A stretch of 64,000 nucleotides of DNA from Sinohyriopsis cumingii (taxonomy: Eukaryota > Mollusca > Bivalvia > Unionida > Unionidae), in assembly GCA_028554795.2 (NCBI GenBank), contig CM068835.1, positions 63,079,719 to 63,143,718 on the forward strand, read 5' to 3'. The position numbers and the translations under genes were made by a program. Shown piece after piece: positions 4,563 through 64,000 of the stretch (the stretch's first letter is position 1; the number at the start of each line of letters is the position of its first letter). A model generated the notes under the pieces. That model saw nothing but the letters and a program-made list of their open reading frames with translations, ran no database searches and was not told where the DNA came from.

Positions 4563-6850
4563 TTATTCTAACACGGCATGAGATTAAATATAATGTTGAC
4601 TATAAGCACTTGGATCAAGGGCACACATGTTTGGCATAAGGAGCTAATTCTTGCTTCCAAACGTGACTTCCTAAATGCATCTAGTCACGTTCTAGTCAGC
4701 AAGTTACGCATACAAATTCGAAAGCATCAAAAGTCGATAAAACAATCTTCTCTTTCGGGAGATATTTATGAATGGCTGGTCATTATAAATGTTCAAAATA
4801 ATTAAAGCTTATATTGCCTGCGGGTACCACATTGAGACCACATTTTAAAATGTCTGTACCGTAAAGTATGCAAGTGTTCTTTAATAGAGAGACTAACTTC
4901 TGGACAGTGTCGACGACAAGAATGTCTATTACACCTGTAATGTAAATTGTCTAAACATATATACCCGGCTGAACGTTTTCTTGAGCAAGGCATGTGTCAT
5001 TTCTTTGGTTAGCTGGACTTGTGAATATAATAACAAATACAAGTAGAAATGGATGTTTATAAAACCCAATATGTGGATATATCTAAATAATACTTCGTTC
5101 TTGTTGCCTCCCTATATGTTAGACTTTTAAACTGGCCTAGCGTTTTATACTGAGCGTAGTGCCCTTGTATCAGTGATACAAGTTCAAAGTTAAATGTCAT
5201 AGGTAAACAAATGCATGCATTGCACGTTGTCTTGAAACGCAGAGATGATTGATAATACAAAAATTAGAAAAATTGTCTAAGTGTGTATTCTTGCGGAAAA
5301 GATATTTGGCCAGTAGGGCATTAGTTACTTTGAAATACTCGACATGCCGTATATATTTACTTATATAATAAGCCCAGCGGCATACTGCACTGTTTCATAG
5401 TTGAAAATGCATACTGCGCAAGCAGATCTGTCTGTGCAGCTTGTTAGGCGTAATCAGTAAAACAAAATATATACAGCCAATCTGAATAGCACATTATGCT
5501 ACAGCATATTGGGAGAGTTGTTGTTTGTAGCTTGACACAACTTATAAGCGAGTGTACAAAGTAACAATGAGTTCAGTATATGTCTGTACATATTTCCATC
5601 TTTACAGCCGTACATACAGTAGACAAATCAAACTTGATGGAAACTCCATGTTTCGATGGTTGACGTTAATTCATCCAAGCTGTTGCCTTCACAGACCGGG
5701 CATAGTAGTTATCATGGCTGAACATATTGTGGCTCGTAGTAGACAGATTACATTGTATTACCTTTTAGTTGCAGCAATATAACACTGTACCAGCAGATCA
5801 CATGGACAATTCAAGCCCAGCCTCTGTTTTGTAGGTCCACACTAAATATAATAATAAGAAGTTGACCTAAATCCATATTGACTAACTTGACCACTTGATT
5901 GTATCATGTGTACACTTAAGTAAAGAAAAAGGCATTAAAGAAAGTATAGTATGACTCAGATTAATTAGTCTTGAGTCTGTGTAACGGTGTTCAGATGGGC
6001 AGCCAGCAATGTGAGAAACTTTTGAAAATATGGCCTCTGGTACTGGGGTTATAAGACCCAAAAACACGCTAAACTTCACAACTTGTTCATGTGGAAAGAT
6101 AATTCATGTCAGGTTCTATGTATTAGATTGTAGGGCAAGAAAGATGTCATATACTTCCTCTCATGCGGATACTGGTACACAGTGTTACGATGCAAATGTT
6201 GATAACAGTTGTTGAATATAATTGTTCTCTCATGATGTAGCTACCATTCAGAGAATTATTTTGTTGGTGATCATAAATGTGACTGACATAAAACAGTTAG
6301 ATACCAATGAGGATATCCTTGATTTGATTATATAATATTTAAAACATTAGGGAAGGAAAAGATGAGGAAATTTATCTCCAGCAACTGTAACATTATCATT
6401 AAAGGGATAAAATCTTGAGTGGCACATTACAAGATGAAATAATTATCAAAATAAAACGCGAATCTTGTTCGATGCATATTGTGCAAAATGACAGAAATCA
6501 TTGTAAATCCCAGTATGTGGGATACCATAAGGATGGAAATTAGCAATTCAGGCCATCAGATATAACACATTCAAAGACTGTTAATTAATGGCTTCAGTCC
6601 TCTTGAATGAGATTTAGACAAGCTCTTCGAACGAACTTCCATTGCTCTAAACCATTAACTTTGATGACAGTGGCTTTCCAGCTTCTTTTGTTTGCACACA
6701 TGTTTGCAATTACGTTTGTTTAATTACAAAGGACATGCTATGTACAAGAGGTTGATCAACAGGGATGTATGTTTTAGCTAAGGATTTTTTTATTTACACC
6801 ACGTCATGGACAGGATAATCACAAAACTGAACACCTTGTATTTTCTGCAT
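4563..6850. other. non-coding AT-rich stretch
   Basis: Only short overlapping ORFs (61-76 codons) on both strands, without motifs, paired splice sites or family resemblance. No repeat structure is evident by eye. Confidence 0.5.
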
Positions 6851-59607: not shown

Positions 59608-61110
59608 CAAAGTCATGTGAACTTGATCCAATTCCAACATTACTGCTGCTTCAGTGCTTAGATCCAGTATTGCCTTCACTAACTGATGTTATTAATACCT
59701 CTCTCTCATCAGCATAATTTCCATCATTTTTCAAAACTCCCATTGTAAAACCTCTGCTGAAGAAACTAACACTACACCATAACGATTTAAAGAAATACTG
59801 CCCGGTTTCTAATCTCCAATTCATAAAAAAAATCTTAGAAAAGGTTGTTCGATCCCAGCTTGTATCTTGTCTGAATTCAAACAGTCTTTTTAGCAATGTA
59901 CAATCTGCATATCGCCCTTGCCACAGGACACACATTGTGTCTGCAAATAGATTACACTCCAGCCCAGCTGATCTATGTTGTGGTGTTCCACAGGGGTCTG
60001 GTCTTGGACCTGTTCTCTACATTCTATACACTCAGCTACTCTCAAGTGTCATAGATCATCATCCAGTGTCTCACCAATTGTACACTGATGACACCCAAAT
60101 ATACAAATCTATCCACCCAAATGAAGTTGATGCTACCATCCAAGGTGTAGAGATGTGCATTTCTGATGTGAAATCATGGATGACTTGTAAAAAGCTGCAG
60201 ATGAATGATGATAAAACTGATGCCATTCTGATCACAACACAAAGACTTTCTCATTCACATCCTTTACCTCACACAATAAATATCAGCAACATCAATATTA
60301 AATTCACACAATCAGTACAAAACCTAGGTGTTACTCTGGACAGTACTCTCACATTGCACCAACATGTCATGAACATATGCAAGGCTGCATATCTTGAGCT
60401 GAGACGCATCAGCTCCATTCTCATATCTTTCAGTTGATGCCACTAAAACACTTGTGTGTTCATTACTACTTTCAAGACTGGACTATGGAAACTCAATTCT
60501 GTCTGGTTCATCTTAATATCTACTGCAGAGACTTCAAAAAGTTCAAAACATAGCTGCTTGGATCATACTTAGAGTACCACAATCAGAGCACACCTCCCCA
60601 CTGCTCTGTACCCAACACTGGCTATCCATTTGATCCAGAATCAAACACAAAATTTGTTCTCTGTGCTACGTTTCACTGACAGACTCTAGTCCAACATACC
60701 TATCCGACCTCACCTATGTGTACACACCAGCAAGATACTTACATTCCTCTTCCGACAATCATATACTCATTATTCTCACTATGAAAACAAAGTCATATGG
60801 ACAGCATTCTTTTGCATACCTGGGCCCAGCAACATGGAATGAATTGCCCACTGAATTTAGACACAAAGACTCGGTGATACCATTCAAGACTGCTCTCAAA
60901 ACTACTTATTCTGACTGCAAAAACAAACTTAAAGACTTAATAATGTTAACTACCTTAAATATTCTCAGCATGTTTTTTATGTTTTCTAATTTCATGGTGT
61001 TTGTTTTTGTAATCATAACATTGTGTATGTTTTTATGTTGTCGAATGTTGCAAAGCGCTTAGAACTTCTAAAGATTAGGCGCTATACAAAGTCCTCATTA
61101 TTATTATTAT
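59608..61110 (+). mobile_element. CR1/L2-like LINE, 5'-truncated with internal deletion
   Basis: The plus-strand RT begins KSCELDPIPTLLLLQCLDPV and continues KKYCPVSNLQFIKKILEKVV, then NVQSAYRPCHRTHIV. It jumps directly to LHSSPADLCCGVPQGSGLGP. About 70 residues expected between, including catalytic motif A, are missing. The polymerase box reads LYTDDTQIY where Y-A-D-D is usual. A 166-codon open frame (59937-60437) covers this and VQNLGVTLDSTLTLHQHVMN; later pieces such as SYGQHSFAYLGPATWNELPT are frameshifted. The 3' end is GGCGCTATACAAAGTCCTC followed by (ATT)n, a typical short-repeat tail of such LINEs. The endonuclease is absent. Confidence 0.85.
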
Positions 61111-62555: not shown

Positions 62556-63109
62556 ATGTGCAATCTTACTGCATGCAAATCTTTCCAAAAAGCACCTATG
62601 TACTGTTTAGACACCGGTATTTGGTAACAGCCATATCTAGCGCAAAATTCAAAATGGTCATAGGACAGAAGGTTGAGTAGCTACAATGTCATAGCCTCAA
62701 TGTCTCCACGAAGTAGGGGTAGTAATATTTGTGCTAGGGTTGTGCTATTCCATGTCGATTTACAAGTAACCAAACAGGATTTGATTTGGAAATATTTTTC
62801 GCAAAAAGATCTCTTCTGCCAATGGTAGCTCAATGGCTGGGAGAAATACTGGCAAGTCAGATGTGTATAAAATGTACAGCAATGTGTGCAGATAAAATTG
62901 TCAAAAATTTTTGCAGGTTTTAATTAAAGGGCTATATCAGCCTTGAAAGTGCCAGAAATTATCATTATAGATGTGGCTTGAGTCTACATGTTTTCAGTTA
63001 ACAAAAACAGAGTATCAAAGTTAGTAACTGGCATCCTTGATAATTTGACTAACAACTATTTTTAATTAACCATTTCAGATTTATAAATATATACTCAATA
63101 GTAGTGAAG
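62556..63109. other. non-coding stretch
   Basis: No ORF, repeat or RNA evident. Confidence 0.45.
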
Positions 63110-63380
63110 TGGGACGATATAGCGTCAATGGGACTTACCATTAAAAACCACCCTGCGACGATATAGCGTCAATGGGAAATTTAACATTACGGAAACCCCT
63201 GGGACGATATAGCGTCAAGGGGAATTTAACATGGGAATATGGGACTGTTTAGCGTCAAGGGGAATTGAACAGGGTGGGACTGTACAGCGTCAAGGGGAAT
63301 TTAACATGGGCAAAAAAAAAAAAAAAAAAAAAAATCTTGGGCCTGCTGAGCATCAAGGGGAAATGGAACAGGGTCGGGAC
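63110..63380. repeat. GATATAGCGTCAA tandem array, six to seven units
   Basis: The core GGGACGATATAGCGTCAATGGGA and variants recur near 63111, 63152, 63202, 63241, 63276 and, weaker, 63338. Spacing is irregular, about 35-60 bp. The later units change to GGGACTGTTTAGCGTCAAG and GGGACTGTACAGCGTCAAGG, then GGGCCTGCTGAGCATCAAGG. Each is followed by GGGAATTTAACATGGG or a variant. The array is interrupted by a 23-nt poly-A at 63312-63334. It is unlike any other repeat in the window. Confidence 0.85.
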
Positions 63381-63402
63381 CCTATTTTAATAAGGTCCCG
63401 AC
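63373..63402. repeat. strong hairpin at the end of the tandem array
   Basis: GTCGGGACC and GGTCCCGAC form a perfect 9-bp GC-rich stem, extended by four A-T pairs after one mismatch, closing on a TT loop. It carries the GGGAC motif of the adjacent array on both strands, so it may have arisen by inversion of an array unit. Confidence 0.8.
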
Positions 63403-63510
63403 CTGATGGGTCTATGGAAATGGAACATGCGAAAATTGAAACAGGGAGGGGTCTCTATTTTTTATTTTTTTTAAAACAAAAAAGAAAAGGGTAGGCAATG
63501 AAAGTCAAGA

Positions 63511-63546
63511 TCTTTTCGAGACCTATGAGTGGCCCTGAAAAGGGCC
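63511..63546 (-). promoter_or_regulatory. histone-type mRNA 3' stem-loop with downstream purine-rich element
   Basis: On the minus strand 63546-63531 reads GGCCCTTTTCAGGGCC. This is a 6-bp stem with a TTTC loop, flanked by CAAA on the 5' side and ACTCA on the 3' side. It matches the metazoan replication-dependent histone stem-loop at every consensus position. Thirteen bases further on the minus strand is GAAAAGA (63517-63511), like the U7-binding histone downstream element. In histone genes SLBP binds the loop and cleavage occurs between the two elements, giving mRNA without poly(A). Here the preceding ORF, ending 18 bases upstream, is not a histone I recognise. Confidence 0.75.
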
Positions 63547-63564
63547 TTTGGGTTTCTTCTTCTT

Positions 63565-63891
63565 CTAACTCTTCCACTTCTTGAACCATCTCCTAACTTT
63601 TACCAATATTCCTGTCATCTTCTTCTTTATTTCTGACTCAGGCATCCAGTCAGGATGACCTATCGCTCGGAATTTCTCCTGTATTCTTATCCAGTTATTG
63701 TTGAGTTTCTCAAAGCTTTCTTTTCTCTTTCTATTTTCTTCTTCTTTTCTTTCCTTAGACCACCTTTCTTTGATGTTCTTTACTCTTCCGTCAGCACTTT
63801 CCTCATTACTTCTTCCGTTTTTGTCAACTGGTCGAACCCCCATTTTACGTATCGCCACTCCATCCAATACAATATTTTTTCTAGGAAGCAC
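63565..63891 (-). CDS. Lys/Arg/Glu-rich ORF of unknown family ending next to a histone-type stem-loop
   Basis: A 108-codon minus-strand frame. The part from about 63790 down is strongly coding-like, with a charged helix (KNIKERWSKERKEEENRKRK), then a Trp-containing segment (IRIQEKFRAIGHPDWMPESE) and a basic end (VRRWFKKWKS) with a TAG. The upstream part overlaps another open frame (63780-63992), and one of the two must be the true frame there. The likely reading is the upstream frame followed by a shift into this one near 63785. It is not a histone. Its stop lies 18 bases from the stem-loop, as for a histone mRNA. It could be a transposon protein, a domesticated gene, or a relic inserted beside a lost histone gene. 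Confidence 0.5.
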   Translation of the reverse strand: MLPRKNIVLDGVAIRKMGVRPVDKNGRSNEESADGRVKNIKERWSKERKEEENRKRKESFEKLNNNWIRIQEKFRAIGHPDWMPESEIKKKMTGILVKVRRWFKKWKS

Positions 63892-64000
63892 CCGACTTGG
63901 ATGACATGGTCCAGTGCTTCCTTCAAACTTCCCACTCTGACATAAGGTGGGTCAGTAAATCCTCTTGACTTGTTGACTTCTTCTTCTATCATCCCTGCGA
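63780..64000 (-). CDS. upstream frame of the unknown minus-strand gene, open to the window edge
   Basis: Open from the window end; the first ATG in the window is at 63992. It reads NKSRGFTDPPYVRVGSLKEA, LDHVIQVGCFLEKILYWMEW and QLTKTEEVMRKVLTEE and ends at TAA 63780-63782. The sequence is natural-looking, with hydrophobic and aromatic residues at helix-like spacing, and overlaps the next frame by 112 bp. A frameshift between the two (mutation, assembly error or, less likely, programmed) would give one protein of at least 140 residues. No family is recognised. Confidence 0.45.
   Translation of the reverse strand, partial: AGMIEEEVNKSRGFTDPPYVRVGSLKEALDHVIQVGCFLEKILYWMEWRYVKWGFDQLTKTEEVMRKVLTEE

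Follow-up and report, generated by a model that had tools for sequence, protein, structure and literature searches.

Introduction

An account from 2009 (PMC2781718), in the part available, presents the histone stem-loop as a feature of histone mRNAs alone and states that no other genes had been connected with SLBP. Mavericks, in turn, have been reported to carry an (AGT)2 end motif and to be flanked by perfect 6-bp target-site duplications (TSDs), according to the portion of PMC8097293 that was accessible. Much is known about Polintons and about histone 3′ ends separately; their combination is new as far as the literature searched extends. In that literature, which excluded preprints and most subscription papers and which included accessible portions of PMC2781718, PMC4046053, PMC8363768, PMC2836005, PMC7805220 and PMC8097293, no report of histone-type ends in transposons or Polintons was found. 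The accessible text of PMC8097293 contains none of the words histone, stem-loop and polyadenyl, and that of PMC8363768 contains histone once and polyadenyl never.

The window analyzed here is the whole 64,000-nt stretch of DNA, and coordinates without a prefix are window positions; L-numbers denote sampled loci of the host genome. At the window end, a histone-type stem-loop (SL) was found in a mobile element that shares its (AGT)2 ends, perfect 6-bp TSD and long TIRs with the Polinton/Maverick group, which includes vertebrate Mavericks (PMC8097293) and adintoviruses (PMC8363768). Unlike known members of that group, the element has five accessory genes that each end in a histone-type SL followed by a purine element.

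A histone-type 3′ end behind a non-histone ORF

The first-pass annotation of the window had noted, on the minus strand, a perfect histone SL at 63546–63531, a GAAAAGA element 13 nt downstream and, 18 nt upstream, the stop codon of a Lys/Arg/Glu-rich ORF. All three were recovered. The intact 16-nt SL GGCCCTTTTCAGGGCC (63531–63546, minus strand) is flanked by CCAAA and ACTCA, the purine downstream element GAAAAGA (core CTCGAAAAGA) occupies 63511–63517 (minus strand), 13 nt past the stem, and the TAG stop that ends 18 nt ahead of the stem closes a 92-aa ORF (63843–63565) that we describe as Lys/Glu-rich. The Infernal comparison with RF00032 that had been proposed at the same time gave a full-length minus-strand match covering 63551–63506, with 37.1 bits (gathering 34) and an E-value of 3.2e-07, and this was the sole Rfam match at gathering level in the window. 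Since GAAAAGA on its own is frequent in the window (19 occurrences, both strands), only its position is telling. Shuffling showed a chance origin of the SL and the upstream frame to be unlikely: the single occurrence of GGYYCTTTYHAGRRCC in the window was matched by none in 60 dinucleotide shuffles of it, and when the 452-nt ORF stretch was shuffled 5,000 times, a frame of at least 128 aa appeared in 5 shuffles and an ATG frame of at least 92 aa in 20.

The 92-aa ORF (63565–63843, minus strand; 92 aa from the ATG, 128 aa from stop to stop) is the 3′ part of a Lys/Glu-rich end gene, here called family KE. Its 5′ part lies in another frame (63780–63998, minus strand) and continues past the window to L010:1188, so that the gene is divided over two overlapping frames in the window copy; a single open frame is present in L011 (202 aa) and L012 (187 aa). 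Single-sequence structure prediction of the 92-aa ORF gave two long helices with a mean pLDDT of 77, and one viral match, at E 7.8, was obtained when this model was used in a structure search. Sequence searches of Pfam and PDB with the ORFs of the window gave no lead on the KE gene, and no relatives emerged from an IMG/VR short-peptide search for which the two window frames served as queries along with the capsid-type ORF and PolB (see below). IMG/VR searches for the SL returned 0, 1 and 6 contigs, every one of which was judged to be a chance match.

The stem-loop lies in a Polinton/Maverick copy

Positions 63100–64000 belong to a copy of 6,727 bp with an internal deletion, of which they make up the left part; its entire extent is G000:C12:63142818–63149544 (L010:119–6845). 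The copy is bordered by the 6-bp TSD CTCAAT, the left one at 63094–63099 and the right one past the window at L010:6846–6851. Its TIRs measure about 460 bp and are 93% identical by BLAST (L010:121–574 versus 6391–6843); the left TIR (63100–63555) begins with AGTAGTGAAGTGGG, giving an AGTAGT end, and the SL sits at its inner edge. Subterminal tandem repeats with units of about 35–46 bp fill 63110–63310 within the TIR, and related units were recognized by eye to about 63420. A near-palindrome, GACGCTATATCGTC, is present in this array (63110–63420), and different units occupy the same place in other copies.

Beyond the window end, the copy retains truncated PolB pieces, recognized by DNA similarity, and two BIR ORFs. 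PolB was identified in a sister copy (L013:3379–6486; PF03175, E 1.2e-35) and an rve integrase in a sister piece (L109:536–1072; PF00665, E 6.2e-15). Based on these sequence features, namely the AGTAGT ends, the 6-bp duplication, the TIRs, and the PolB and integrase of sister copies, the element is a Polinton/Maverick. Further ORFs in L012 and L014, which we take to be capsid-type and protease-type genes, gave a Peptidase_C5 match below the cut-off (E 0.092) in Pfam, with no match for the capsid ORFs. The presence of PolB (PF03175) and the rve integrase, the occurrence of decayed copies and, among the matches listed, paired ends 17–20 kb apart are likewise features shared with Polintons/Mavericks, and the presumed capsid-type ORFs may be a further one. 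Both ends were read in five copies: the left end is AGTAGTGAA in all five, the right end is AGTAGTGAA in three and a one-base variant in two, and all five are surrounded by a perfect 6-bp target duplication.

BIR domains (PF00653, E 2.3e-21 and 5.1e-8) lie beside PolB at L010:3108–4266 (minus strand), past the window end, and an ORF resembling the BIR ORF by DNA similarity follows PolB in L013 (6474–7001). These ORFs are likely a captured anti-apoptosis (inhibitor-of-apoptosis) gene. The phrase 'inhibitor of apoptosis' is absent from the accessible text of PMC8097293.

Two accounts of the histone-type signals had been offered in the first-pass annotation, the first being that a mobile element uses them and the second that an element had inserted into and replaced a histone gene. 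The second account, and with it a histone-gene relic, was rejected: the SL is contained in the TIR of the element itself, other SLs are found far into its interior, and none of 36 element loci matched host H1, H2A, H2B, H3 or H4 in tblastn at E 0.01. The first gains support, at the level of sequence, from the thousands of SL copies, the covariation, the exactness of the spacing and the fact that the genes upstream are those of the element, all of which are described below.

Five accessory gene families end in stem-loops

A search of the host genome (2.9 Gb, 1,138 contigs) found 8,395 exact copies (4,177 + 4,218) of the SL 23-mer and 19,173 (9,475 + 9,698) of a variant with an A-U pair, AGCCCTTTTCAGGGCT; the reversed patterns gave 0 in both cases. 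Both types together amount to at least 27,568 exact copies, compared with at least 150 scored histone matches in the same genome, and the thousands of copies rule out a lone odd gene. Covariance search with RF00032 gave 22 matches in 14 of the 15 loci scanned. Among the matches listed, the SL 23-mer forms many outward-facing pairs about 17–20 kb or about 1.1 kb apart, and the A-U variant is often found in same-strand pairs about 0.8 kb apart. The pairs at about 1.1 kb were first read as divergent H2A/H2B genes and are actually the CPLC and KLIA genes of the element.

In the sampled copies, five small accessory families, KE, CPLC, KLIA, QQ1 and QQ2, were each found to have an SL of their own, with the stop usually 18–33 nt before the SL, a mostly ACYCA flank and GAAAAGA 13 nt on. 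Sampling was concentrated on the first 17 Mb of contig C1, to which 20 PolB-anchored places were added, none of them on C1. A set of 51 SLs of the class GGYY..RRCC was drawn from 34 of the 36 element loci, L005 and L015 being dropped for overlap with L004. At 43 of these 51 sites, a family open frame ends 11–65 nt before the stem (KLIA 15, CPLC 14, KE 10, and 4 for KE2, another type of gene that occupies the KE end); the search for further copies that the first-pass annotation had called for thus found open frames of the element's families, and not histone genes, ahead of the SL. Four of the other eight sites match a family by tblastn (L054, L055, L064, and L014, from which the query itself had been cut), and at the last four, namely L050, L053, L065 and one L006 site at the locus edge, no upstream gene was recognized. 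The SLs of L050, L053 and L065 have a deviating purine-element context (TGCCTCGAAAAG), and these loci probably represent another subfamily or decayed genes. The KLIA gene (L016:568–1139, minus strand) consists of two overlapping frames in some copies and of a single frame of about 200 aa in others.

QQ1 and QQ2, near the capsid side, were found by a relaxed search and end in the A-U variant, in which the outer G-C pair is replaced on both sides; their purine element lies mostly 13–14 nt on, and the stem is broken in one QQ2 copy (L011). Two SL sites are located at the TIR inner edges, so the outermost gene at either end reads outward into the SL.

In all five copies with both ends read, the inverted repeat extends just beyond the SL at either end. 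This placement would also suit a hairpin that works at the DNA level, for example when the TIR is recognized or during packaging or protein-primed replication, and merely resembles a histone 3′ end, and TIR hairpins are common in Polinton-like elements. We consider such a role unlikely, since it leaves unexplained that the KLIA, QQ1 and QQ2 SLs, three of the five types, lie outside the TIR, just behind a stop and on the coding strand, and since the asymmetric parts (the loop UUUC, the AC-rich flank and the purine element at 13 nt), for which a DNA hairpin would have no use, are kept and histone-like. The sheer number of exact copies is in line with another proposal, a decoy, in which tens of thousands of SL transcripts would soak up SLBP or U7 and disturb the host histone supply as their main function. 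The SLs stand behind conserved open genes at mRNA-like distances and not in non-coding arrays, which makes a decoy extremely improbable. The SL is probably the functional 3′ end of one of the Polinton/Maverick element's own genes.

Conservation of the stem-loops and of the genes ahead of them

A sample independent of the SL was obtained by hand-picking 20 copies from the 150 matches scored for a query with the N-terminal part of PolB. At the KLIA place, 14 of the 20 copies have a perfect 16-nt SL, five have one mismatch and one, a fragment, has none, so that 19/20 are within one mismatch. At the CPLC place, 12 copies have a perfect SL, three have one mismatch and one has two (16/20 within two mismatches); of the remaining places, three are without an SL, and L107 has only a KLIA-type site with one mismatch. 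Among the 40 PolB-anchored stretches, ten SLs are altered, of which five retain all pairs and five break one, indicating that copies decay. In the set of 51 sites, GAAAAG lies exactly 13 nt after the stem at 48, and its position had played no part in their selection.

Column identity at the CPLC end (16 rows, the four copies without a CPLC site being dropped) was.980 in the SL and.994 in CTCGAAAAGA; the intervening spacer reached.762, the sequence upstream of the SL.895 and the sequence downstream of CTCGAAAAGA.639. The contrast was weak at the KLIA end (19 rows, L073 dropped), with.984 in the SL,.968 in CTCGAAAAGA,.895 in the spacer,.963 upstream and.854 further downstream. Covariation was measured in 22 SLs (17 from the element and 5 from the host) that were chosen to include paired variants. 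Three of the six pairs changed on both sides, and the score was.260 compared with.149 ±.017 in shuffles (0/500 as high), all slid controls being well below the true register; known broken stems were excluded from this set, so the 126/126 paired cells say little. The main compensated change is the A-U outer pair with its 19,173 exact copies.

The ratio dN/dS was estimated by a simple Nei-Gojobori method on matched parts, after pairs with fewer than 50 codons, a dS of up to 0.02 or an undefined distance had been dropped. Median values were.16 for KE (10 ORFs, 29 pairs),.19 for CPLC (13 ORFs, 78 pairs),.16 for QQ1 (5 ORFs, 10 pairs),.10 for KE2 (3 ORFs, 3 pairs) and.62 for KLIA (13 ORFs, 64 pairs, 15 of them at or above 1). 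These ratios point to strong purifying selection in four of the five ORF sets tested (KE, CPLC, QQ1 and KE2) and to weak selection in KLIA. Synonymous sites of KE are near saturation, with a median dS of 1.68 among sites that had been picked by exact SL match.

These data bear on whether the SLs are passive relics, that is, histone 3′ ends once captured by the element and copied without present function. Capture would fit the QQ-type cassette (AAAC before the stem, TCTAGAAAAGA), which is the closest to the host histone cassette, and the many decayed copies, with a broken pair in half of the altered SLs of the anchored set, agree with loss of function. We nevertheless regard a passive relic as very unlikely in view of the two-sided compensated changes, the finding that at the CPLC end both the SL and the purine element are conserved although the spacer separating them varies, and the persistence of the same SL, by which the KE sites were picked, behind KE genes that have approached synonymous saturation.

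Comparison with the host histone genes

The host histone genes are arranged in tandem repeats of about 8.27 kb, as judged from the best 150 of 662 candidates scored. One unit contains five SLs, behind H3, H4, H2B, H2A and H1; in the unit that was read, L048 (G000:C14:13098500–13108499), all five genes are on one strand, and the repeats are scattered over many small contigs. The host stem is GGCCCU..AGGGCC in H3, H4, H2B and H2A and GGUCCU..AGGACC in H1, and the distance from the stem to GAAAAG is 13 nt in H3, H4 and H2B and greater by one base in H2A and H1.

The accessory genes share with metazoan replication-dependent histone genes an RF00032 SL, with the same stem as host H3, H4, H2A and H2B, and short open frames with the stop near the stem, and they resemble host H3, H4 and H2B in the purine element at 13 nt. 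Unlike histone genes, they are mobile and virus-like and encode proteins unrelated to histones, and there are partial differences in the bases next to GAAAAGA and in either the 5′ flank (CCAAA) or the first pair (A-U). The 3′ end of the element is thus very close to that of the host histone genes, with differences in the flanks and beside the purine core.

Searches of the host for U7 snRNA (RF00066) and SLBP (PF15247) gave no match, and as the same searches matched no control genome either, nothing follows from these blanks. A pattern search for U7 gave 18 candidates, compared with 11 for the reversed control, none of them convincing.

Two putative classes of element mRNA

The core genes were searched for the same signal. 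No SL was found within 515 nt behind the PolB ORF, within 600 nt behind the protease-type ORF (two copies) or within 600 nt behind the BIR ORF, and L109, a 5.5-kb piece with the integrase, contained none at up to 3 mismatches. The capsid-type ORF adjoins the protease-type ORF directly downstream. AATAAA/ATTAAA occurs about 108 nt after the protease-type ORF in both copies checked, which fits poly(A) ends there, and is absent from the 515 nt behind PolB. The core genes (PolB, capsid-type, protease-type and BIR) probably use poly(A) ends or read through.

The best reading of the accessory genes is that they would be expressed in the SLBP/U7 manner, as poly(A)-less, S-phase-linked transcripts. 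Cleavage of histone mRNAs takes place about 5 nt downstream of the stem. By the same route, host SLBP would bind the stem of the accessory mRNA, the host U7 snRNP would pair with the purine element (CUCGAAAAGAGAU), and the pre-mRNA would be cut about 5 nt after the stem. The resulting poly(A)-less mRNAs would be stable, and their translation would fall mainly in S phase, at a time when the element depends on replication machinery and free nucleotides. Such a program is proposed because a DNA element that copies itself profits from replicating cells, and two transcript classes could let it separate S-phase accessory functions from the rest.

We consider it likely that the element has two mRNA classes, in which core genes have ordinary ends and the five accessory genes use the host's replication-dependent histone pathway, so that part of its expression would coincide with S phase; in that case, its regular use of this pathway would have no known precedent among mobile elements and viruses. 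The combined data suggest that the histone mRNA pathway, which the cell links to DNA replication, has been exploited by a genomic parasite. With its high copy number and five such genes, the element may serve as a natural experiment on what the SL is capable of outside histones, and the histone-type ends would offer a reason for accessory genes to be S-phase genes. If this holds true, non-poly(A) RNA libraries of the host should contain element mRNAs that poly(A) libraries miss, and these missed mRNAs would bias estimates of Polinton activity.

Other features of the window and the genome

Remains of a non-LTR retrotransposon reverse transcriptase are present in the window at 59718–61062 (plus strand; RVT_1, E 2.2e-12), with a short TAA-type repeat near the end. 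On contig C8, PolB copies recur every ~93 kb across G000:C8:55900539–56273225 (55.90, 55.99, 56.09, 56.18 and 56.27 Mb), a spacing that points to tandem segmental duplication of a region in which the element lies.
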